Of a stretch of 64,000 nucleotides of DNA, positions 8,274-42,949 are shown one piece after another. Numbering within the stretch: the stretch's first letter is position 1; the number at the start of each line of letters is the position of its first letter. The position numbers and the translations under genes were made by a program. The notes under the pieces are model-generated. The model was given only the letters and a program-made list of their open reading frames with translations, searched no databases and was not told the origin of the DNA. The stretch is from Candidatus Zixiibacteriota bacterium (GTDB taxonomy: Bacteria; Zixibacteria; MSB-5A5; GN15; FEB-12): positions 132,122 through 196,121 of the forward strand of contig JAJRSF010000033.1 in NCBI GenBank assembly GCA_024278935.1, in the 5' to 3' direction.

Positions 8274-9692
8274 ATGAAAAATTATATCAAAATTCTATTT
8301 TTGTTTTTTTGCTTAACTTTAATAAGTAACCTGTCTCATAGAACTGTTCAAGCAGCCACGACTTTACATTTGGAAGTTGTTACGACAAATTTAAATTCAC
8401 CTGTTTTCCTGACTTCTCCCTCTAACGATAATCGCTTATTTATTGTAGAAGAACCGGGAAGGATACGAATACATGCCGATGGTTCTACTCTCGCAATTCC
8501 ATTTTTAGATATCACTCCTCAAGTGATATATGATGGTGAACGAGGGTTACTCGGATTAACCTTTCATCCTGATTACGCAAATAACGGATTTTTCTATTTG
8601 AATTATACGACCTTGATTAACAGCCAGACATATTCTCGGATTTCACGTTTTACAGTTGATTCTTTAAATCCAAATATTGCTGACACATCATCTGAAGAGA
8701 TATTATTACCATTGCTCCAACCGTTTAATAACCATAACGGTGGGATGTTGGCATTTGGTGCTGATGGTTATTTGTACGCAGGATTTGGTGATGGTGGGAG
8801 TGGAGGTGATCCAAACAACAATGGTCAAAACGGAGAAAATTTATTTGGTACAATTATCCGATTAGATATTAATGGAATCCTTCCATATGCAATTCCACCA
8901 GACAATCCATTTGTAAACAATAACTCATTCTTAGATGAAATTTGGGCTTATGGGTTGAGAAACCCATGGCGGTTCTCATTTGATCGATTAAATTCTGATC
9001 TCTACATCGGCGATGTTGGGCAGAATTTACTTGAAGAAATAGATGTACAATTATCAAGTAGTACAGGTGGCGAGAATTACGGATGGCGACTTAAAGAGGG
9101 GTCGAATTGTTTTAATCCTCTGACAAATTGTGAAGATGGTGTCACAGTAATAGATCCAATATATGAATATACTCATAGCGGAGGTCATTGTTCAGTAACC
9201 GGCGGTTATGTGTATAGAGGCAGTTGTTTGCCTGAATTTCAAGGAATGTATTTTTTCGCAGATTTTTGTACGAGTAAAATCTGGTCGTTTAAAAGCATAA
9301 ATGGAATTCTTTCAGAATTTACCGACTATACTCCGACTTTATCACCAAGTTTGATTGCATCTTTCGGGGAAGATAGTAACGGAGAAATATATATCATAAG
9401 TTTGAACGGGACTGTGTATCGAATAGTTCCAGAAGGTGGAGCAACAGTGTGTAATTCTTCGGAATGTTGCCAAGGGATCCGTGGTAATGTTGACAATGAT
9501 ATTTTAGATGCAGTAGATATTTCTGATTTGATTTACATTGTCGATTTTATTTTCACAAACGGACCTGATCCGGCTTGCACCGAAGAAGCAAACGCTGATA
9601 GTGATGCTTTAGAAGCAATAGATATTTCTGATTTAATATATATTGTAGATTTTATTTTTACAGGTGGACCAGCACCGATTGATTGCCCATAA
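8274..9692 (+). CDS. Secreted PQQ-type glucose/sorbosone dehydrogenase-like protein with dockerin-like C-terminus
   Basis: 472 residues. Signal peptide at 1-28, then a six-bladed soluble glucose dehydrogenase/HHIP-like propeller: RLFIVEEPGRIRI, GERGLLGLTFHPDY, NHNGGMLAFGADGYLYAGFGDGG, WAYGLRNPWRFSFD, IGDVGQNLLEEID. From about residue 400 there are two dockerin-like calcium-binding repeats (VDNDILDAVDISDLIYIVDF and ADSDALEAIDISDLIYIVDF), each followed by GP-rich loops. Dockerins dock to cohesins in scaffolded surface systems; no cohesin gene is visible here. AAAGGAG sits 9 nt before the ATG. The substrate is unknown. It ends 6 nt from the convergent DUF3857 gene. Confidence 0.85.
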   Translation: MKNYIKILFLFFCLTLISNLSHRTVQAATTLHLEVVTTNLNSPVFLTSPSNDNRLFIVEEPGRIRIHADGSTLAIPFLDITPQVIYDGERGLLGLTFHPDYANNGFFYLNYTTLINSQTYSRISRFTVDSLNPNIADTSSEEILLPLLQPFNNHNGGMLAFGADGYLYAGFGDGGSGGDPNNNGQNGENLFGTIIRLDINGILPYAIPPDNPFVNNNSFLDEIWAYGLRNPWRFSFDRLNSDLYIGDVGQNLLEEIDVQLSSSTGGENYGWRLKEGSNCFNPLTNCEDGVTVIDPIYEYTHSGGHCSVTGGYVYRGSCLPEFQGMYFFADFCTSKIWSFKSINGILSEFTDYTPTLSPSLIASFGEDSNGEIYIISLNGTVYRIVPEGGATVCNSSECCQGIRGNVDNDILDAVDISDLIYIVDFIFTNGPDPACTEEANADSDALEAIDISDLIYIVDFIFTGGPAPIDCP

Positions 9693-9698
9693 AAATTT

Positions 9699-11558
9699 CT
9701 ACTGTGTGTAGAGTTTGATATATTTTGAAGTTATTTTTTTAAATCTTTTATAGTACAATTCATATTCTTCAAATTGGGAAGGAGCTATCTGGTATTTACC
9801 GGTTTCTTTTGTCACATTACAATAATATATGTTATCAATTTGCTTTACCTCTGTAGTAAAGAAATTAAATGATGTTTTAATTGTATCGGGCTTTATAATT
9901 TGAACCGAATCAATTTGGATCGTTGAATCAATGTGAATTGCAATAGAGTCTACGAATCTATCAGGATATCCAAAATTAATTGCATATTCACGGTCAGTTG
10001 TTTTAATTTTTGTGATATTTTTTTCTCTAAAAAACAGATAGGGATTGACATACCATTTTTTGCCAATTTTATCTACTTTCTTTTTTCCGAGAGCTTCAAT
10101 TTGCATAATAAAAGGCTTAGAAATATCATCAAAGTTTTCAAATGAGAAAGATTCTAAGCTAAAAAGAGTTTCATCGCCATTGATATATGAAATAAGGTAT
10201 TCTTCTTTTTCATTTTTTGTTTTATCAGTCAGATGATTTCGCATATACCGACCATAGTTGCCAAACCACTTATACTGACCAGAGATTTGAACAGTTTGAT
10301 CTGCCGAAATTTTCAGCACTGTCTTCCTTAGAGTCTGATTATCTTCCGGTTTGCTTGCGGGGGTTCTTCGCAAAACTCCGCCATCTTCAGTAACAACTAA
10401 CACATCGATATCTTCGTCGCCTGAATGAATTTCTCCATAGGCACATGAGCTGCAAGTTGGATCCATCCAGGTTGTGTCGTTTCCGTCAATTGCAACTGTT
10501 ATGAGATGATTAAAGTTTAGAGATGGGAAATCGGGATCAATTCTTCCGTTGCCACGAGTCAGAACTAAGACAGGGTATGCTTTGATATTTTGATTGCGTA
10601 ATTTGGAGACTAGGAGCGTTGACATATCTTTACAATCACCAAAGGCTCTTGATTCAGTTAGGAGTGCATCATATGGTTGCTAACCTCCGACACCGATTTC
10701 GATTGCGACATAGCGAATGTTTTCGATGACATCATTATATATTTCTTGAGTAGAAAAAGTTTCTTCGACTGGGACAATATTACATTTGCCTTTATAAAGT
10801 TCGTTATACCATTGTCCGATACCTTCCCAGCTTACTTCGGATAAGGCATAATCTCCGAGGGCTAATCCTTCGCAGATTAATCTAAGTCGAATTTCTTGAC
10901 GAGCATCAGGCGGTAAATATTTCAAAGATTTCAAAGCAGGTATATTGTTTAAGACCCATTGATAAGATGTTATGCCACTATATTCAGAAATAAGAGGTTG
11001 GACATCAGAGCCATAAAGTTTTGAATGGATAAGTGTGCCATCGGAACTGTTTACGACATAGGAAATAGAATCTACGGGGATAAATTCCTGGAAGATATCT
11101 CCACTAAGGTAAAACAAACTTTTGCATTCGACGGTATATTCTAAATCTATCACATACGGAAAATGCGATGTCTCCGCATCAAGATAAAAAATGCAATTAT
11201 CATCATAGCCACCCGCGGAACCATAGCCACACTGTTTATTAAAATGTTTTTTTTCTTTTGTATAGAGTTCTTTTCCGTCAATAGATGAAACTCTTAATTT
11301 TGCTTTTTTGATAGTTGTAAATTTATTTTCAATAAAATAGGCAGCATTATATTTTTCACCTAGCTTATTATATATAATCTTTCTGAGATGTACTTTGCCG
11401 GTGTAGGCACCATCGTCAATTGTATACTCCCACGTTTTAAACAAATACTTTGCACCTTTTTCAGGGATAGATTCGTCGGCAAAGCTGTTTGCTGTCATGC
11501 CTGAGAGCAGAAACAAAACAATAAATAAATATGAACTAATTTTATTCAGTTGTTTCAT
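9699..11558 (-). pseudogene. DUF3857/transglutaminase-like exported protein with intact catalytic triad, interrupted by in-frame TAG
   Basis: Second of two tandem paralogs. The start at 11558 gives a signal peptide (MKQLNKISSYLFIVLFLLSG...FADE) and overlaps the end of the upstream paralog by 17 nt. Order: DUF3857 domain, then a transglutaminase core. TAG at 10680-10682 interrupts exactly in the conserved IGVGG-x-QPY motif, where relatives usually have Tyr. Beyond it the frame continues as ESRAFGDCKDMSTLL with the catalytic Cys (codon 10632-10634), NFNHLITVAI (His) and WMDPT (Asp). Read through, it is about 619 residues. Family members are periplasmic or surface proteins of unclear role. The lesion separates the DUF3857 part from the catalytic part. 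Confidence 0.75.
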
Positions 11559-13491
11559 AGACAATAGAAATCTCTTCATCATCAAAAAGTGAAAGTTCTT
11601 CAAAAAGTTTTTTGGCTTGATTATAATTATGTGCTTTTAATTCCGGTTTAATTACTTCGAGTGTACTTGAGATTGTAATAGTTGATCCATTGACTACCGA
11701 TGTACGGCTCATTCTAATTTGCCCCATATCATTTAAGACATCTTTTGGAAGGTGTATCTCTTTTGGTACCTCATCTAAGTTAATTTTAATAACATTTTGA
11801 TAAATAAATGGGTAGGTAAAATCTATAGGGAAAAACCGTTTTTCAGATGTGAATGGGTTTTGTTCAAAAGTAAAACTCACGGGTTTGACAATGAGGTTTT
11901 CATCGAGATGTCTGACAAGTTCTTCAGATGTAAAACTTCCTGTTACAGTAAAATTATTAGATTCATCAGGAGTACATACATAGTCTCCTAGAGCTATTGC
12001 TTTCCCAACACGATCTTTTATGAAATAATCTACAAACTTATCTTGGGTAGTATTGTCGAATTCATTAAGCATGTCAGCAGCATAATACCCAGTCATGACT
12101 GACGATGTTGAGCAGACTGCGAGACCCTCGGTGCTTATATGCATAGTGGTAATATCTGACCTAGTTGAGTTGATAGGTTTTATTGTCATACGGACAAGCT
12201 GCGATTGATCACCGTCAAGAAGTAAGCCACCATTGGTTAAACACTGAGGTTGTAAAATACCGTAAAGAGAATTTCGATCAGCAACATCTAAGAATTCCCA
12301 ACTTTCACCAATTTGTACAAACGAGATAAAATAGTTAAACTGTCGACGCTCAGGGTAACTTGGGTCAAATTTACCATTAGACCGTAATGAAATCAGAACC
12401 GGCCAAGCATCAATCCCTATCGCTTTATGCATCTGTATCAATAGAAGATTTTTTGCTTCGGGAGTGCCGATTTTTTGCGTAAGCATTTCAGACATCTTGT
12501 CAAATTTAAAATAAACTGTTTCATAGTCATCAGTTGATTTAAAATTTGTTTTAATATATTCAAAAATTGCTACTGATTTTTCTTCTTGAGTTTGTAATCC
12601 CGTCGTGATTTCTTCAGCCAGTTTTTTCAGATCTTTATCTTTGTTACAATAACTATCAAACCAATTTTCCGACAACTCTGCTTGATCAAGCCAACCTTTC
12701 ACAATATGCACGACACTTGCATTCGGATAGGTGTATGAAATGAGTAAAAAACGTAATGAAGCGCGGTAGTCATTAAGAGAACTCATATACGGTTCATCTA
12801 CAATAGGAGGTAGATTTTCCATCTCCCAAGTATAGTTTTTTAATTTTTGCAATTTCCGCATTGAACCTGCACGAGGGTCAATTTTTAACTCAATAGTAGG
12901 TTTTTTATTTTTGGCAGGGACATTACTATAAAGCATATCAAACGCATAGCCAGGTGTTAATGAAACTGTTGTCGATGATTTTAGTGTATAAATTTTACTT
13001 TGAAAATACTATGGAGGTATATCCATATACCAATCTTTTTTACTTATTGTATATCGATATTCTAAAATAACTCCTTCAGAAACATTCGGAAAAGAAAACG
13101 ATTGTGTGACCCAATTGTTATGAGGTTTCTCAAAGATAGCATTTTTTTCTACCTTATGTTTTTTACCGTCAGGGGTTATAGTATGAGCTTTAAAATGTTT
13201 TAACTTTTCGTATTTCTCATAAAATCTGACCGACCGATCACCAACTTCATCAACACCAGACGCACGTAAAACTTTTATGCGTATATGGCGTTCGATTTTA
13301 ATTTTTTTGAATTCAACTTTTACTGATTGTTTGTCAAATATAATTACCGCCCCTGCTTCAGGGTAATCATCTGGGGCGGCAATGAACCATTCGGCATCAT
13401 CGATTTTTCCAAATTTTTGTGCAGTAACTGAAGAAGATATAACTAATGAAACTAAAATAAGAAAAAGGAAAAATTGATTACGTTTGCACAT
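11542..13491 (-). pseudogene. DUF3857/transglutaminase-like exported protein with degenerate active site, interrupted by in-frame TAG
   Basis: First of two tandem paralogs; about 649 residues if read through. Signal peptide MCKRNQFFLFLILVSLVISS. TAG at 13009-13011 falls in IPP-x-YFQSK, a place where the family normally has Trp (W-x-F-Q), so TGG to TAG explains it. The transglutaminase-like core lacks the catalytic Cys: where the next paralog has GDCKD this one has GTPEA (12454-12468), FNY replaces FNH, and the Asp segment is LDVADR. It would therefore be a non-catalytic relative even if expressed. DUF3858-like beta sequence follows to the C-terminus. Confidence 0.75.
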
Positions 13492-16226: not shown

Positions 16227-17585
16227 TTTCTAACACCTTTTTTGTATTTTTGTCAATTTTCACCCGTTCGTCAATTTGATGTCCAACGACCCAGAAAACT
16301 TTATTTTTATCTGCTACAACTACAGTTTCGTCACGGAAAACTCTTTCTACTTTTTTATCGGTAAGATAGTTGCTTATTTTTTTGAACCACGCATACCAAG
16401 TGGACAAAATTGGTCGCCATCTTTGATTGAACGAACAGACAACGGCAATTTTATTTTAGCTAAATCAAAACGCCCGACCATACCATTTTTGTTATCTTTG
16501 AGCGATCCGGTCGTTTTGTTTTTCAACCTGACAGTTATAATATAATTTATTTTATGTAGATGGCAACTTTGGTCGACATCTAATTTCTCATTAAATGAAA
16601 GTTTTTTACGGGGATATAGAACGATATAATCAGAAAATGATTTCATCTCTAATTTCCCTTTGAGAGAATGCGAGTTCTTGCCAGAAATTATCGAATCAAG
16701 CAGACGGTTGATAGTCTCTTTGTCGGGGAATAAATTATTTTCAGAAATTTTTGCAACTGCTGTCCGCAGAATCCTTTTTTGTATCCATTTGTCGCATTGG
16801 AGCAATTTCTCTTTGTGAAGCAGAATTTTATTACCGACTGAGATAGTAAGAATCTTTTTCATCTTTTTCTGTACAACCGAATCAAGGAACGTTTCTTCGT
16901 CTGAAACAGTTTCGGATAAATTTAAAATAGCTTTTTCTACCGATTGGTTCAGGTTTGTTTTCAAAATTGGGAGTAGTTTGTTGCGGATATAGTTCCGTTT
17001 AAAAACTGACTGCTTATTTGAAGCATCCTGACAAAACGACAATTTATGCTTTTCAATATAAGCTAGTATTTAATCTTTTGACATATCCAGAAGTGGGCGG
17101 ATAATAAAACCTCGCATTGGTGGGATGCCTTTGAGACCGGTCAAGCCTGTCCCCCGCAAGATTCGGAACAGAATAGTTTCTACCTGGTCATTTTGGTGAT
17201 GACCGAGGGCAACTTTGGTATAGTTATATTCTAAGGCGAGAGTTTCAAATAGTTGGTAGCGATAGTCGCGAGCGGTTTCCTCGATCCCTTTTTTGTTTTT
17301 TTCAGCGAGTGCTTTTATATCTGCTGAGACTAAGTGCAATTCAATATCCAGAGAATCGCAAAGTTGCTGGCAAAAGAGTTCTTCGGCTTTGGCTGCTTTT
17401 TTTCGAAGTTGATGATTGACATAAACAGCAGCAAGGGTAAGGTTCTGTTTTTTGCGGAGTCTGGCAAGCAGATGTAGAAGTGTCACAGAATCCGCTCCGC
17501 CTGACAATGCTACCAGTATAGAATCATGGGGAGCGATAAGATTATGTTCTTCAGAAAATCTGATAAGTTTTGGTAATAAATCCAT
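16207..17585 (-). pseudogene. tilS: tRNA(Ile)-lysidine synthase TilS, carrying an in-frame TAA and a one-base frameshift
   Basis: TilS modifies C34 of tRNA-Ile(CAU) to lysidine so AUA is read as Ile; it is normally essential. The PP-loop SGGADS is at residues 28-33, followed by TLAAVYVNHQLR, ALGHHQNDQVETILFRILRG and GFIIRPLLDMSKD. TAA at 17070-17072 then interrupts, in a place where relatives have Glu (S-R-E-E-I). The frame continues as ILAYIEKHKLSFCQDASNK...FKRNYIRNKLLP. Near 16377-16383 an A7 run (minus strand) must gain one A to join LGMRGSKK to ISNYLTDKKVERVFRD, the usual TilS end. Two lesions in an essential gene, with all motifs otherwise kept, argue for sequence error. Confidence 0.88.
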
Positions 17586-19489: not shown

Positions 19490-22400
19490 ATGAAATCCAA
19501 ATTTTTGCTCACCTTTCTGGCCTGTTTTCTTTTATCATTTTCATTTGTATCAGGTCAAGAAGTTTCTTTAGACAATGTCCAGGGAACTATGTGGAATAAT
19601 CAACCAGATTCCATTATGCCTGGTTCTACTTACATTTTTGATATTCGATTCAACAACCCTACGAGTTCAAATATTAGTGGATTTACTATTCCTTTTCATG
19701 TTTACTCTCCTGATGGAGCGACATGGACAAACACTGTTTCCGACTCAACCGGATTACTTGGTAAAAGTCTAATGGATGGTGGTGTACTTATCACATATCC
19801 TGCTGATGGTGCTAATGTAAATGGAACTGGTGCTGATACTTCAACTTTTGGAGCATTCGTATTCTTTAATCCGGGATTACCTCCCGGCTTTAATGAAGTT
19901 TCATTTACCGTTGAAATCGGACCTGTTGGTATTGATGATGCCGGAAAGACAATCTGCCTGGATTCTGTTACCTTCCCGCAAAATGCTTGGAAATGGGTAG
20001 AAAAAGGACAGCCTGATATTATCCCTTCATGGGACGGTCCTCATTGTTTTGCTATTGGTGGTGCCACCCCAGAGACCCCTCCTGAACTTGCCCCTATAGG
20101 TGCTCAATCAGTTGATGAAGGTCAGGAACTTGTTATCAATGTTTCAGCAACAGATGCTGAAGGAAGTCCTATAACTTTAACAACTTCTACTCTGCCAGCC
20201 GGAGCCATATTCACAGAGACCGGTAATGGTACCGGTACATTCAGTTGGACTCCTGATTTTGATCAGGCAGGTTCTTATGATATATTATTCACAGCATTTG
20301 AACCATCAACTATGTCAGATACTGAAACTGTAACCATAACAGTTAACAATACAAACCGTGCTCCATTCTTTTTCACAATTACTGATGAGTCGGTAGATGA
20401 AGATCAAGAAGTTGGTATATATCCTGTTGTTGATGATCCAGATCCAGAGCATAGTAATATAGATTCTTTGACACTATCTGTTACAACACTTCCTGAAGGA
20501 GCGACTTTTGGGTATGTCTTTAATGGAGATGTATGGGGATGGGAATTTTTATGGACACCATCTTTTGAACAAGCCGGTGTATATGAGATAGAATTTGTAA
20601 TTACTGATGGCGATTTATTTGGATATGATACTGTTGTAGTAACAGTGAACAATGTAAACAGAGCTCCATCTTTTGCTGTATCCGTTGACGACCAAATAAT
20701 TGATGAAATGTAACCACTATCGTTCATCCATCCAAGTGCTGACCCTGATCTAGACGATGTCCTTACAAAAACATGGACTGAACTTCCTGCCGGTGCGACC
20801 TACGTTGCTTTAGATGCAACGGTCAATCAATTTGACTGGACACCTGGTGCTGATCAAGCTGGTTCATATCAAATAATATTTACTATTTCCGACGGTGAAT
20901 TCTCTGATGTTGATACTGTGAACATTACTGTTATCGACGTAAACCAACCTCCTGTCTTAGCTGAGATTGGTCCGAGAGGTGTTACTGCCGGTGAATTATT
21001 AGAAATTTACGTAACATCAACTGATGTTGATGGTACTATCCCTGAACTTTCTGTTGTATCTGCTCCTCCGAATGCTATCTTTGTTGATTCAGGTAATGGT
21101 AACGGATTGTTTACCTGGGCAACAGAAATTGCTGATTCAGGTGAATATGTTGTTGAATTTAGAGCCTTTGATGGTGAATTCATGGCTGGCGAATTAGTAA
21201 CTATTACTGTTGGTAAAGCTCCTAAGATGATTGTTGTAGATACGAACTTTTTCATGTCTCAATATACTCAAGGTGAGTTTTTCGCTGATACTGCTAAGTT
21301 TAATGTTTCTGAATTAAATGGTGCCGCTATTTCTGTTGATGTTGCAACTTCTGCTTCATGGCTTTCAATTACCGGCCCAAGCAATTTCACAACTCCGTAT
21401 CTTTTAGAAGTAGCTCTTGATCCAACCGGATTGGCACTTGGGGATTATTATGACTCTCTAATTGTTACATCTGCCGATGCTGTCAACTCTCAAGTTCTTT
21501 TTGTCGGACTGAGTGTTGTCGAAAGACCTAACACAGTCGCTTATATTGTTTCGCCTGTTGATACAATTTTTACAACAGATGAATGTACTCCGTTGGATAT
21601 AAATTTTGTAACTGCTGATGACGAAGAAGACCAAATTACTATCAGTATGAGTGGCTTAGTTGAGAACATGACTTTCCTTGACAACGGTAACGGTACTGCT
21701 GATTTCAACTTCAGTCCTAACTTTGCACAAGCAGGTGTTTACCCTGTAGCATTGATATTATACGATGGTAGAGATTCTGCTCAATACCCAATAACTATTG
21801 TTGTTGATGAATGTCAACCGGGTACCGAAGGTGATACACTCACCGTAGCTACTGTCCCTGCAGTTCCGGGTGCAAGAGTTACTGTTGCTGTTGATATTGC
21901 GAACCTTTGTGACTTGGATGGTCTTAATATTAGTGTTGGGTGGACTTCATCTAACATAACTCTTGATTCTGTAAGTTTTGTAGATTCACGAATGAATTCT
22001 TTATTCTCTTGGTTAATAGATGCCAATATTGACTCTAACCATGTAAATATTTTTGGTGGTTGGGCTGAAATACCTACTTTACTATCACCTGGTTCTGGCA
22101 ACTTAGCTAATTTACATTTCTCACTTGAAGTTGGCACTCCTGCCGGATTCTATCCGCTTGATTTCTATATGGAGCCAATGTTTAACCGTGACTGTGGTAG
22201 CGGAGTCGAAGCAGTTCGTCCGTTCTTTATCGCTGGTGGTATCGTAGTTGATACTTCCGGTAACTACGTATGTAGTTATGTTGTTGACCCTGGTGGCAAT
22301 CCTGTACCGGGTGCAACAGTAGAACTATGGGATAATTTCCCATCCGGTTCTGCTCAATCATCACAAGATGCTAGTGGTAATGGCGTTTTTGCTTTTGACG

Positions 22401-26393: not shown

Positions 26394-28321
26394 ATGTCAA
26401 TAATTCATAATGAAAAGCTCAAAGATTATCTGCTCTTATTCTTATTTGCATTTGTTCTGCGAATGATTTTCTTATTCCAATTCCAATCAGTAATAATTTT
26501 TGAGAACCCGATTGTTGATATGGCCTATCATCATAACTGGGCAATGGCTATAGCCAACGGCGAGCAGTTTTATGCCGGACCATTTTTTCGAGCGCCGTTG
26601 TATCCGATGTTTTTGGGTTTTGTCTATTGGTTGTTTGGCGAATCCGCTTGGATTATCAGGATTATACAGGCAATCATCGGTTCGGTCAGTTGTGTATTGC
26701 TCTATGAAATTGGACGAGAACTTTTTGACCGCAAGACAGCAATACTTGCATCGGTAATTATGGCTCTCTATGCCCCGTTGATATTTTTTGACGCTCAGCT
26801 TTTGGTTCCTAACCTGGCAATCTTTTTAAATCTGATGGCGTTAGTTTTCATTGTACGAACACAAACAAAAAACAATTTACAATCGTATCTTTCTCAGGAT
26901 TGTTTTTAGGACTGTCGATGATAGCTCGTCCGACTATTGGGCTGTTTGTAGTTTTTCTTATTCTATATTTAGTATATATAAATCGGAAAAAGTTTCAGAC
27001 TGAATTTAAAAAAATCGGGCTGATGGTTCTTTGTATCTGTCTGCCGATTCTTCCTGTGACAGCCTATAACTATTCCCAGACATCTGAAATCATACCTATC
27101 GCTGCCTATGGCGGGATTAACTTTTATATTGGCAACTACGATGGTGCCGATGGTGTCTCGGCGGTAATACCGGGCGTACGCCCTGACTGGCAAGGTGGTA
27201 AAGAAGATACTAAACGGATTGCTGAAAAAGAAATGGGTCGGTCGCTTTCAGAGTCAGAACAGTCAACTTATTGGTTCGGGAAAACAGTAAATGATGTTTC
27301 ATCTGATCCGCTTAGATGGTTGGGTCTGCTTAGGAGCAAAATTCGTTTACTCATAAATGGTTTTGAACTCTCAAATAATTTTGACTTTTATTATTTCGCT
27401 CATCAAACGACGCTTATGAAAATTCTTCTGCATCGTTCATTACTGTTTTTCCCGTTTGGTCTGCTATTTGCCTTAGGAGTATTAGGATATTCTATACAAA
27501 GAGAGAAAAAAACAAAACAGAAAATTCTTCTTATCTATATGTTGACTACTGCCGTTTCGATTGTCATGTTCTTAGTAACAGCACGGTATCGTTTGTATAT
27601 GGTTCCGCCTCTTATATTGTTTGCCTCTTATGCTATCATTCATTTTAAAAACGAATGGAAAGTTAAAAACATATCGAGTAAGGTTAGTTACATAATCATA
27701 TTTCTAGGATTGATACTGTATTGTAACTCCGACTATAATGATTACTCGAAAACAACCGATGCCCACGGGCTACACACGACCGCATCGATTTACAATAAAT
27801 TAGGGAATCTTGATAGTGCTTCTGTCTACTACCAAAAAGCACTAGATGTTGACTCGAATCAAATTGAGACTCTAAATGACTACGCACTACTATTTGCTTC
27901 GCATAATATATACCCAAAACCATTTAAACTCTTAGAACATGCAATCACTTTACCAAACAAGAATTTTATGACGCATTACAATTTGGGGTATGTTTATATG
28001 CAAGTTGATAAACTTGATGAAGCGAAATAACAATTCAAAATTGTCATTGATGAGAACCCACACTATATTTTTGCTCATAATAATTTAGGCATTTGTTATA
28101 TGTGGCTCGGGCAACTTGACTCTGCTCTCACTGTATATCAGAATTTGATAGGAATCGATCCGACATATACTGAGAGTTACTACAATATCGGGCTGATTCA
28201 GCTTGATAAGTCTGAGCCTGATTCTGCCAAGCACTATTTAAAGAGGTATTTAGCCCATAATCCGTCAAACAGAGGTCTGATAGAAACTTCGAAACATCTT
28301 CTGGACTCTTTAGGGCAGTAA
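26394..28321 (+). pseudogene. GT39/ArnT-like membrane glycosyltransferase with C-terminal TPR repeats; one frameshift and one in-frame TAA
   Basis: About 640 residues if restored. The N-terminal half is a GT-C type polytopic enzyme (dolichyl-phosphate-mannose transferase-like): an acidic first loop (ENPIVDMAYHHNWA) and FFRAPLYPMFLGFVY, which corresponds to the family R-x-P-L-Y-P motif. Such enzymes move a sugar from a polyprenyl carrier to an extracytoplasmic acceptor. At the A6 run 26867-26872 one A must be added to join TQTKK to QFTIVSFSGLFLGLSMIARP. The C-terminus has about four TPRs (SASVYYQKALDVDSNQIE, THYNLGYVYMQVDKLDEAK, ...). TAA at 28028-28030 splits a TPR after LDEAK; the frame continues as QFKIVIDENPHYIFAHNNLG to TAA at 28319. 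Confidence 0.8.
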
Positions 28322-29963: not shown

Positions 29964-31190
29964 ATGGTATGGTTCTCAATTCTCATAGAAGCTATCTCAG
30001 CACTTTGGGCCAACCGCCTGCGCTCTTTTCTGACAATTCTCGGAATGGTCATGGGGGTTACATCGGTGATTGCCATTGTATCAACCGTTGAGGGGATGCA
30101 GTCAAACATTGAAAGTACTATCAATTCGCTTGGACCTCGCTCCTTTATCGTTACTCGCATGGGTATGGGAATGACTATGGCTCAATATTTGGAACGCTTA
30201 AAACGAAGAAAATTCACTAAAGGGATGTTGCCGTTTATTGAAGAAGGCTGTCCATCATGTGAAGAAGTTGGTGCAGCATCGTATGCCAACAAACATATCA
30301 AATATAAAGATAAACAAATGCGATGGGTAAGCATCGAAGGTGAGACACCAAATGTGCTTGGCATAAACGGACGTGAAGTTGCGATTGGTCGACATTTTTC
30401 TGATGAAGATAATCACCGTCGGAGAAAAGTTGTATTTCTTGGATATGATGTCTATGAAAAGTTCTTTGAAGGTGAAGACCCTGTTGACTAAAAATTAAAA
30501 ATCGGTGGCATAGAGTTTACTGTTGTTGGAGTCATGACCAAACTTGAAGAAGGTGCTATGATGTCGGGCTTAAATGAATTTGTACTTATTCCAATTTCGA
30601 CACATCAACAACTTTTCCCAAAACCTGGAAACCCTATTAATATAATTGTCTCTTCGGTAACTTTAGATTTACGTGAGCGAGCAATGGATGAAGTCCGGGT
30701 TGTGGTAAGAACCCTCAGACGACTTGACTATGAAGATGAAGATGATTTCTCAATGATAACTCCCGATGGTATCTTAAGTGTCATAAATGATCTGACACAA
30801 AGTTTCAGAGTTATATTTATATCTCTACCTGTTCTCTCTATTGTCATTGGTGGAATCGTGATTATGAACATCATGATGATTTCAGTAACGGAACGTACTC
30901 GCGAGATTGGAATCAGAAAATCTCTTGGAGCTAACAATAGAAATATTATGGTACAGTTTTTATATGAATCTGTCGTCCTCTCTTTAGTAGGAGGGATAAT
31001 AGGTATCGGCTTCGGGGTCTATCTGGGTGGTTATATATTACATAACATGATGGATATTTCTATGACACCTACAACTCTGGGGATAATCTTAGGCTTTGGT
31101 ATTTCATCGGGCGTTGGTCTTTTCTTTGGAATCTACCCGGCTATGAAAGCAGCAAAACTTGACCCAATAAAGGCACTAAGTTATGAGTAA
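29964..31190 (+). pseudogene. MacB/FtsX-type ABC transporter permease, interrupted by in-frame TAA
   Basis: About 408 residues if read through. TM1 at the N-terminus (RLRSFLTILGMVMGVTSVIAIVS) with the MacB_PCD/FtsX architecture: a periplasmic domain, then three TM helices (RVIFISLPVLSIVIGGIVIMNIMM; TERTREIGIRKSLGA; FGISSGVGLFFGIYPAMKAAKLDPIKAL). TAA at 30489-30491 lies after EDPVD and before KLKIGGIEFTVVGVM; relatives have a Gln- or Lys-type residue there (D-P-V-G-x-K/Q-I-x-I). Upstream and downstream parts are each well conserved. MacB-type permeases drive efflux or lipoprotein/toxin export with a separate or fused ATPase. Confidence 0.82.
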
Positions 31191-42322: not shown

Positions 42323-42949
42323 TCACTTTTTTATTTCATCTCCTGCTTCATTCCATTTTGCTTGACTAATAACTTTTCCATCTTTGTAGTTGGCTTCATA
42401 TCGCTTTTGACCATTATCATACCAAATTGTACTTATGCCATCAGGTTTATCATCTTTGTAGTTGGCTTTATTTTGCATTTGACCATTTTTATGCCAACCT
42501 GTGCCTAAACCTTCAGTTTTACCATCTTTGAAGTTGGCTTCATATTGCTTTTGACCATTATCATACCAAGATGTACTTATGCCATCAGGTTTATCATCTT
42601 TGTAGTTGGCTTCATATTGCTTTTGACCATTTTTATGCCAACCTGTGCCTAAACCTTCTTTTTTTCCATCTTTGTAGTTGGCTTCATATTCCTTTTGACC
42701 ATTATCATACCAACCTGCACCTCAACCTTCTTTTTTTCCATCTTTGTAGTTGGCTTCATCATCCTTTTGACCTGACTTGTAAAATGAAATCACCTTACCA
42801 GAAAAGGGGTTGTTCTCATTCACAGCATAAGCTAGTCCATCTCCATGTATCTTTATTTGTGAAGGATTCATTTCCCTATCGTTTGTCGAACAAGATAGCA
42901 CAAAAATAGTTATTACTATTGATAAGACCATTAATTGGATTTTTTTCAT
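42323..42949 (-). pseudogene. MORN-repeat lipoprotein, interrupted by in-frame TGA
   Basis: About 208 residues if read through. The start at 42949 has GGAG upstream and a lipoprotein signal (MKKIQLMVLSIVITIFVLSC). Then about seven MORN-like repeats of 22-24 residues of the type G-x-W-(Y/H)-x-N-G-Q-K-x-Y-E-A-N-Y-K-D-G-K. TGA at 42722-42724 follows DGKKEG, where two sister repeats have Leu (GKKEGLGTG, GKTEGLGTG): TTA to TGA. The frame continues through five more repeats to TGA at 42323. Because the DNA repeats are nearly identical, misassembly or recombination between repeats is also possible. Such proteins are often surface-exposed or toxin-like; the role here is unknown. Confidence 0.8.

Follow-up and report, generated by a model that had tools for sequence, protein, structure and literature searches.

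Pairs of paralogues in which one chain is catalytic and the other is not, the latter being required for activity, are known from the alpha/beta subunits of mitochondrial processing peptidase, from ClpP/ClpR and from the AdoMetDC/prozyme couple of trypanosomes. Within the transglutaminase fold, chains devoid of catalytic chemistry are represented by erythrocyte protein 4.2 and XPC/Rad4, eukaryotic pseudo-transglutaminases of other cell compartments that, to our knowledge, are not encoded in tandem with a live sister. Here we describe a tandem pair of DUF3857/transglutaminase-like genes in a stretch of 64,000 nucleotides (hereafter the window) from contig JAJRSF010000033.1 of Candidatus Zixiibacteriota bacterium (GCA_024278935.1), where the downstream gene bears a Cys-His-Asp triad (live) and the upstream gene lacks the Cys (dead). 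The recurrence of this working and disabled pairing across bacterial groups suggests, from comparison of the genes, that the disabled twin is required as a partner and is not debris, and the window pair is probably an exported enzyme of two subunits, of which only one is catalytic.

As in the established enzyme/pseudoenzyme pairs, the two paralogues are retained together; their fold and chemistry are different, and a complex of the DUF3857 pair is a proposal. The dead chain would share with protein 4.2 and XPC/Rad4 a transglutaminase fold that lacks catalytic chemistry. A further comparison is provided by vasohibin, whose partner SVBP is a small unrelated chaperone and not a dead paralogue. 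Vasohibin appears in the excerpted text of PMC4866520 as a transglutaminase-like cysteine protease with a protein partner, and the same excerpt names 3KD4 merely as a superfamily match. The latter entry (BDI_1141 of Parabacteroides distasonis, a "putative protease") is a solved DUF3857/DUF3858-type structure that has the fold of our dead model; where a profile matched a PDB sequence at all, it was the sole match. At the nucleophile site it reads YGTPLEI, as opposed to YGDCKDK in live members, and thus 3KD4 is Cys-less too, although it was deposited as a putative protease. A DUF3857 gene adjoining lolA is mentioned in the excerpt of PMC6341742. The sequence-only reading of the window had regarded the live/dead pairing as a system not known to be described; indeed, no description was found in open PMC full texts, a scope outside which subscription papers and preprints lie, and the excerpt of PMC10318531 contains nothing on it.

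The window pair and its relatives in Zixibacteria

Both genes are located on the minus strand, where open reading frames (ORFs) and Pfam matches place the dead gene at 13491 to 11542 (649 codons) and the live gene at 11558 (ATG) to 9699 (stop; 619 codons), with an overlap of 17 nt (11542..11558) and a single in-frame TAG in each. The DUF3857 domain (PF12969) scores 37.9 bits in the live and 65.9 bits in the dead protein (gathering score 24.6), and Transglut_core (PF01841) reaches 25.4 bits in both alike (gathering score 23). NCBIfam assigned no family to the two window proteins, to the second pair of the same genome or to one fusion (see below).

Alignment places the triad of the live gene at Cys309 within GDCKD (codon 10632..10634), His351 within FNH (10506..10508) and Asp366 within MDPT (10461..10463), and it is complete. 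In the dead gene the place of the Cys is taken by Pro344 within GTPEA (12460..12462) and that of the His by Tyr387 within FNY (12331..12333), whereas the third place retains Asp402 within LDVADR (12286..12288). Thus, two of the three triad residues are lost from the dead gene, the nucleophile included. The sequence-only reading had the live site, the overlap and the TAGs right; of the three stretches that it listed for the upstream gene (GTPEA, FNY and LDVADR), the first two have lost the Cys and the His, and the third still holds an Asp.

The same genome carries a second live/dead DUF3857 pair, which is intact and lies on another contig (C32) in the reversed order, live first. We searched 61 genomes, the window's own and 60 relatives, and took 60 loci from them (labelled L, with genomes labelled G); DUF3857 is present in 40 of the 61. 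The loci were sorted into types by their best similarity, with motifs used for types III and IV. Type I, to which the window pair belongs, has the dead gene followed by the live one, type II has live then dead, and type III has a live gene with RSGVCKDIA then a dead gene with AYGHxLDRA. Type IV comprises one pair only. Besides these types there are solitary longer proteins, with tetratricopeptide (TPR) repeats in three of the four scanned. Within types I–III the live and the dead sequences each form one clade per type, with a support of 100 in the SH-like approximate likelihood ratio test (SH-aLRT).

A dead neighbour adjoins 41 of the 54 live genes in this Zixibacteria set and a fragment adjoins three more; eight live genes are alone at contig ends and two are alone with room for a partner. 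An upstream orthologue with a normal GDCKD, which the sequence-only reading had named beforehand as the mark of local decay, was found in none of the 27 type I dead sequences: the Cys is absent from all 27, the window's own counted, and local decay is not borne out. In the 11 type I dead sequences that were aligned, the residue at the Cys place is variable, and the neighbouring G345, K350 and N351 are invariant.

Recurrence of the pairing in other bacteria

A type II live profile run against named genomes, and hence anchored on the live motif, yielded 79 loci with 80 live genes from Zixibacteria, Acidobacteriota, Aminicenantes, KSB1, Eisenbacteria, Opitutia and others, with two loci (L071 and L072) duplicating loci of the Zixibacteria set. 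A Cys-less paralogue adjoins 65 of these live genes and a homologous fragment without the Cys region adjoins six, and none of the 80 adjoins only another live gene. Six stand alone within 2 kb of a contig end and three are alone with room; for one of these three (L128), the genome holds a dead copy at another place. The dead gene lies upstream of the live gene in 55 of 80 cases. Over the Zixibacteria and named sets, four dead genes stand alone, all starting 9–236 bases from a contig end. The spacing between the paired genes is at most 30 nt in 79 of 91 pairs, with overlap in 45, when measured from the nearest possible ATG, which biases it to short gaps. No conserved third gene was found beside the pairs: the largest clusters of flanking ORFs vary in distance and strand, and further clusters are confined to one subgroup.

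Cys, His and Asp are present together in 139 of 143 live sequences, the others being cut short (three) or reading Cys-His-Glu (one). The 128 dead sequences have mostly Gly (36), Arg (22), Ser (19), Glu (12) or Ala (10) at the Cys place, besides other residues, and they keep the His in 15 and the Asp in 83 cases. Several loci, namely L014 (2782-8992), L068, L081, L110, L118, L129 and L212, contain two or three dead copies per live copy.

Because the scan of named genomes was anchored on the live motif, we also took a motif-blind sample of 119 Acidobacteriota genomes, 55 of them with DUF3857, from which 54 loci with neighbouring matches were chosen by eye with the motifs unseen. One live gene with one to three dead genes was found at 45 of the 54 (30 live-dead, 13 dead-live, one dead-dead-live and one dead-dead-dead-live), and no locus was live-live. 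At L202 the live gene is accompanied by a partner that keeps the Cys without the His or Asp (C-S-S), three loci have one resolved member, and five (L184, L194, L196, L201 and L213) are dead-only on the counted strand, of which L196 has a live gene adjoining on the other strand and L213 stops at a contig end. The two dead copies of L196 (2798-6879) have Asn for Cys and keep the His and Asp. Dead members with live-like flanks occur at L184 (GYGV[G]RDKA), L194 (GAGD[V]KDKA) and L201 (KCGD[P]KDKA), as if the Cys had been lost later. Ten loci (L218–L227) represent a further Acidobacteriota type with proteins of approximately 1240 amino acids (aa), always live, with a motif like RFGDCKDKA, then dead.

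Bacteroidota were sampled through plasmid records only. Of 18 plasmid records with a match, seven were fetched, giving three Bacteroidota and four Pseudomonadota loci, and two Persicobacter (Bacteroidota) plasmids carry live-dead pairs. A plasmid search with the type II dead protein gave no match.

Natural fusions were found in Opitutia, where 36 of 141 genomes searched had a match and four encode a single ORF of 1300–1353 aa consisting of a live half followed by a dead half. The live halves have GVCRDKA together with the His and Asp, the dead halves have YG[HN]xADRA, and 7–24 residues lie between the two profile matches; Pfam detects DUF3857 twice in both of the fusion ORFs scanned. The live halves cluster with live genes of types III and IV, and the dead halves fall in the same larger set. 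Such fusion, related to types III/IV and not to the window's type I, is the strongest sign here that live and dead chains may act together.

Fold, export and history of the dead chain

With the TAG read as Trp, AlphaFold2 models of the window proteins reach a mean predicted local distance difference test (pLDDT) score of 89.0 and a predicted template modelling (pTM) score of 0.85 for the dead chain, and 88.5 and 0.86 for the live chain. The best structural match of the dead model is 3KD4 (Z 21.1, 479 residues, root-mean-square deviation (rmsd) 4.5), and its core additionally matches PNGase, XPC, transglutaminases and the pseudo-transglutaminase protein 4.2. The matches to protein 4.2 (7uzs, Z 10.2, rmsd 4.3 over 155 residues) and XPC/Rad4 (8ebw, Z 10.8) are of fold only, with no sequence relation shown. 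Approximately residues 40–255, comprising the DUF3857 domain, resemble ribophorin I of the oligosaccharyltransferase (Z about 12) and the N-domain of M1 aminopeptidase (Z about 9). A profile search of the PDB with 11 type I dead sequences gave no match. As modelled, the dead chain keeps the transglutaminase-like fold.

Both window proteins begin with a signal-peptide-like N-terminus. By a crude test, hydrophobic, signal-like N-termini occur in 61 of 78 dead genes and in 65 of 92 live genes, and a further 75 genes were too short at that end to judge; this result suggests that live and dead proteins would both be exported. The sequence-only reading had set the pair at the cell surface; the part of this claim that stands is export, from which no definite location follows.

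The ratio of nonsynonymous to synonymous substitution rates (dN/dS) is 0.10–0.20 for dead and 0.07–0.21 for live genes in 17 comparisons between relatives, after three saturated comparisons were dropped and with several others rough (dS >1). Judged by these ratios, the dead genes are under purifying selection. The two classes also share part of their history: trees of live and dead genes have 10 of 21 splits in common for type I (random mean 0.25, maximum 3) and 17 of 28 for the Acidobacteriota group (random mean 0.27). The trees reported here all come from quick searches and contain many long branches.

When the catalytic columns are excluded, 67 of 73 dead rows group together (SH-aLRT 99), and a single clade of all 73 is not rejected by the approximately unbiased test (153 rows, p-AU 0.676). 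Forcing live and dead sequences together is rejected for type II (p 0.0024) and not rejected for type I (p 0.185). On 173 rows a single dead clade is rejected (p about 1e-44), but not after leaving out L228 and the first members of L184 and L194 (p 0.266), and thus one ancient origin is allowed for 82 of 85 dead rows, with separate losses later. Indeed, L228 looks like a fresh live/dead pair, whereas L184 and L194 look like pairs in which the Cys was later lost from the first member.

The role of the dead chain

We favour a two-subunit enzyme because of the conserved pairing, the loss of the site, the kept fold, the selection and the fusion. Two features of known enzyme/pseudoenzyme pairs are found here, namely paralogues that are conserved together and a natural fusion, the latter in the Opitutia relatives of types III/IV. 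The live chain, with its Cys-His-Asp, would perform the chemistry, most likely amide-bond hydrolysis or transfer, judging by the superfamily, and the dead chain would be a non-catalytic subunit that contacts the live chain physically and holds it, activates it or presents substrate to it; the reaction, the substrate and the direction of regulation are parts of this proposal that we infer. A partnership of an active and a non-catalytic sister had been anticipated by the sequence-only reading, and conserved adjacency, coinheritance, purifying selection and natural fusions now speak for it.

Several observations weigh against this interpretation. Solitary live genes, each the single family match of its genome, occur at L136 and L139, and others are found on plasmids at one of three Bacteroidota loci (Aureibacter) and at all four Pseudomonadota loci. 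In genomes G137 and G148 the live and dead copies are unlinked. The dead-dead loci L184, L194 and L201 imply that a dead chain is retained there without this live partner, and a simple 1:1 dimer fits poorly with those loci where a live gene is accompanied by two or three dead ones. Only two of eight splits are in common between the type II live and dead trees (random mean 0.27, maximum 5), and shared inheritance is in any case partly expected from the linkage of adjoining genes. In G003, the sister species, it is the two live genes that are broken, the two dead genes being intact.

The same dead-only tandem loci and unlinked copies would be expected if the dead chain were an exported binding protein in its own right that serves the same pathway, for instance by catching the same substrate, with no complex formed. 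The fusions in the four Opitutia genomes point away from such independence, as does the finding that no dead gene in the Zixibacteria and named sets stands alone away from a contig end, and we consider this arrangement unlikely. A dissociable inhibitor or guard, holding the live enzyme inactive until a signal causes its removal, appears improbable as well. An inhibitor could be made first given the adjacency of the genes and the upstream position of the dead gene in type I and, within the named scan, in most of the short Acidobacteriota pairs, but types II and III and the long pairs have the opposite order, and the single chain of Opitutia permits an autoinhibitory domain rather than a dissociable inhibitor. 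In addition, the full length and strong conservation of the dead chain exceed what small propeptide-like inhibitors need.

It is very unlikely that the dead chain has remained an enzyme by using a different nucleophile or catalysing a different reaction: the frequently kept Asp and the invariant G345, K350 and N351 by the lost Cys could be read in this way, but the residue at the Cys place varies freely and the His is rare. That the upstream gene is a decaying copy is refuted for the family, since the Cys is missing from every type I dead sequence and purifying selection acts on the family, and we give it almost no credence despite the TAG in each window gene, the broken live genes of G003 and two other species of the genus without a match to the DUF3857 family. 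The broken genes and missing matches may reflect decay within the genus or assembly error. The interruptions in G003 lie at L007 (2232-4111) and L006 (2232-4212), where the live genes contain frame breaks and one of them also a stop.

The TAGs themselves are found at codon 161 of the dead gene (13009..13011) and codon 293 of the live gene (10680..10682), both on the minus strand, at positions occupied by Trp in 11 of 11 aligned type I dead relatives (context PW[FY]FQ) and in 12 of 12 aligned type I live relatives (GGWQP). They are thus single nonsense changes at conserved Trp codons. Recoding of TAG was rejected as unneeded, since TAG is the ordinary terminator of other window genes and two further genes are interrupted by TAA, namely tilS (16374-17585, minus strand), with a lone in-frame stop at 17070-17072 in the ATP_bind_3 domain, and a gene for a MacB-like permease (29964-31190, plus strand), with one at 30489-30491 in the MacB_PCD domain. 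TilS is usually essential, and its stop is likely a base error or recent damage. Because these two genes are interrupted as well, the TAGs are no special feature of the DUF3857 pair and tell more about the window genome or its assembly; the window pair may be broken in this genome, or the assembly may contain base errors. Same-frame stops also seem to split a large Ig-domain secreted protein (20711-20713, plus strand), a TPR protein (28028-28030, plus strand) and a repeat protein (42722-42724, minus strand). By a crude count there is no clear excess of such splits, with 1.9 per 10 kb in the window versus 1.4 in other Zixibacteria loci of similar GC.

Beside the pair, a gene at 8274-9692 on the plus strand encodes a glucose/sorbosone dehydrogenase-like protein whose C-terminal part carries two repeats around VDISDLIYIVDFIF that we take to resemble dockerin-type repeats.

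For the family as a whole, we see the balance as even for a wider picture, in which paired DUF3857 proteins would be ancient and widespread secreted enzymes, obligately composed of one catalytic and at least one non-catalytic chain, with an origin before the split of Bacteroidota, Acidobacteriota and Zixibacteria, at least one re-invention (L228), fusion in Opitutia and a few lineages that became dead-dead and binding-only. Enzyme/pseudoenzyme pairs are known in a few other folds, and the bacterial transglutaminase-like case is a near-rule over several phyla. It comes with natural experiments, namely inverted gene order, additional dead copies, a fusion, a recent re-invention and cases in which the live partner has been lost. 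Some hosts are available as isolates, such as Acidobacteriaceae bacterium KBS 96 (L112), which makes it possible to test directly what a non-catalytic subunit does. The reading of the DUF3857 family changes accordingly, in that its solved structure, named a protease, has no nucleophile.

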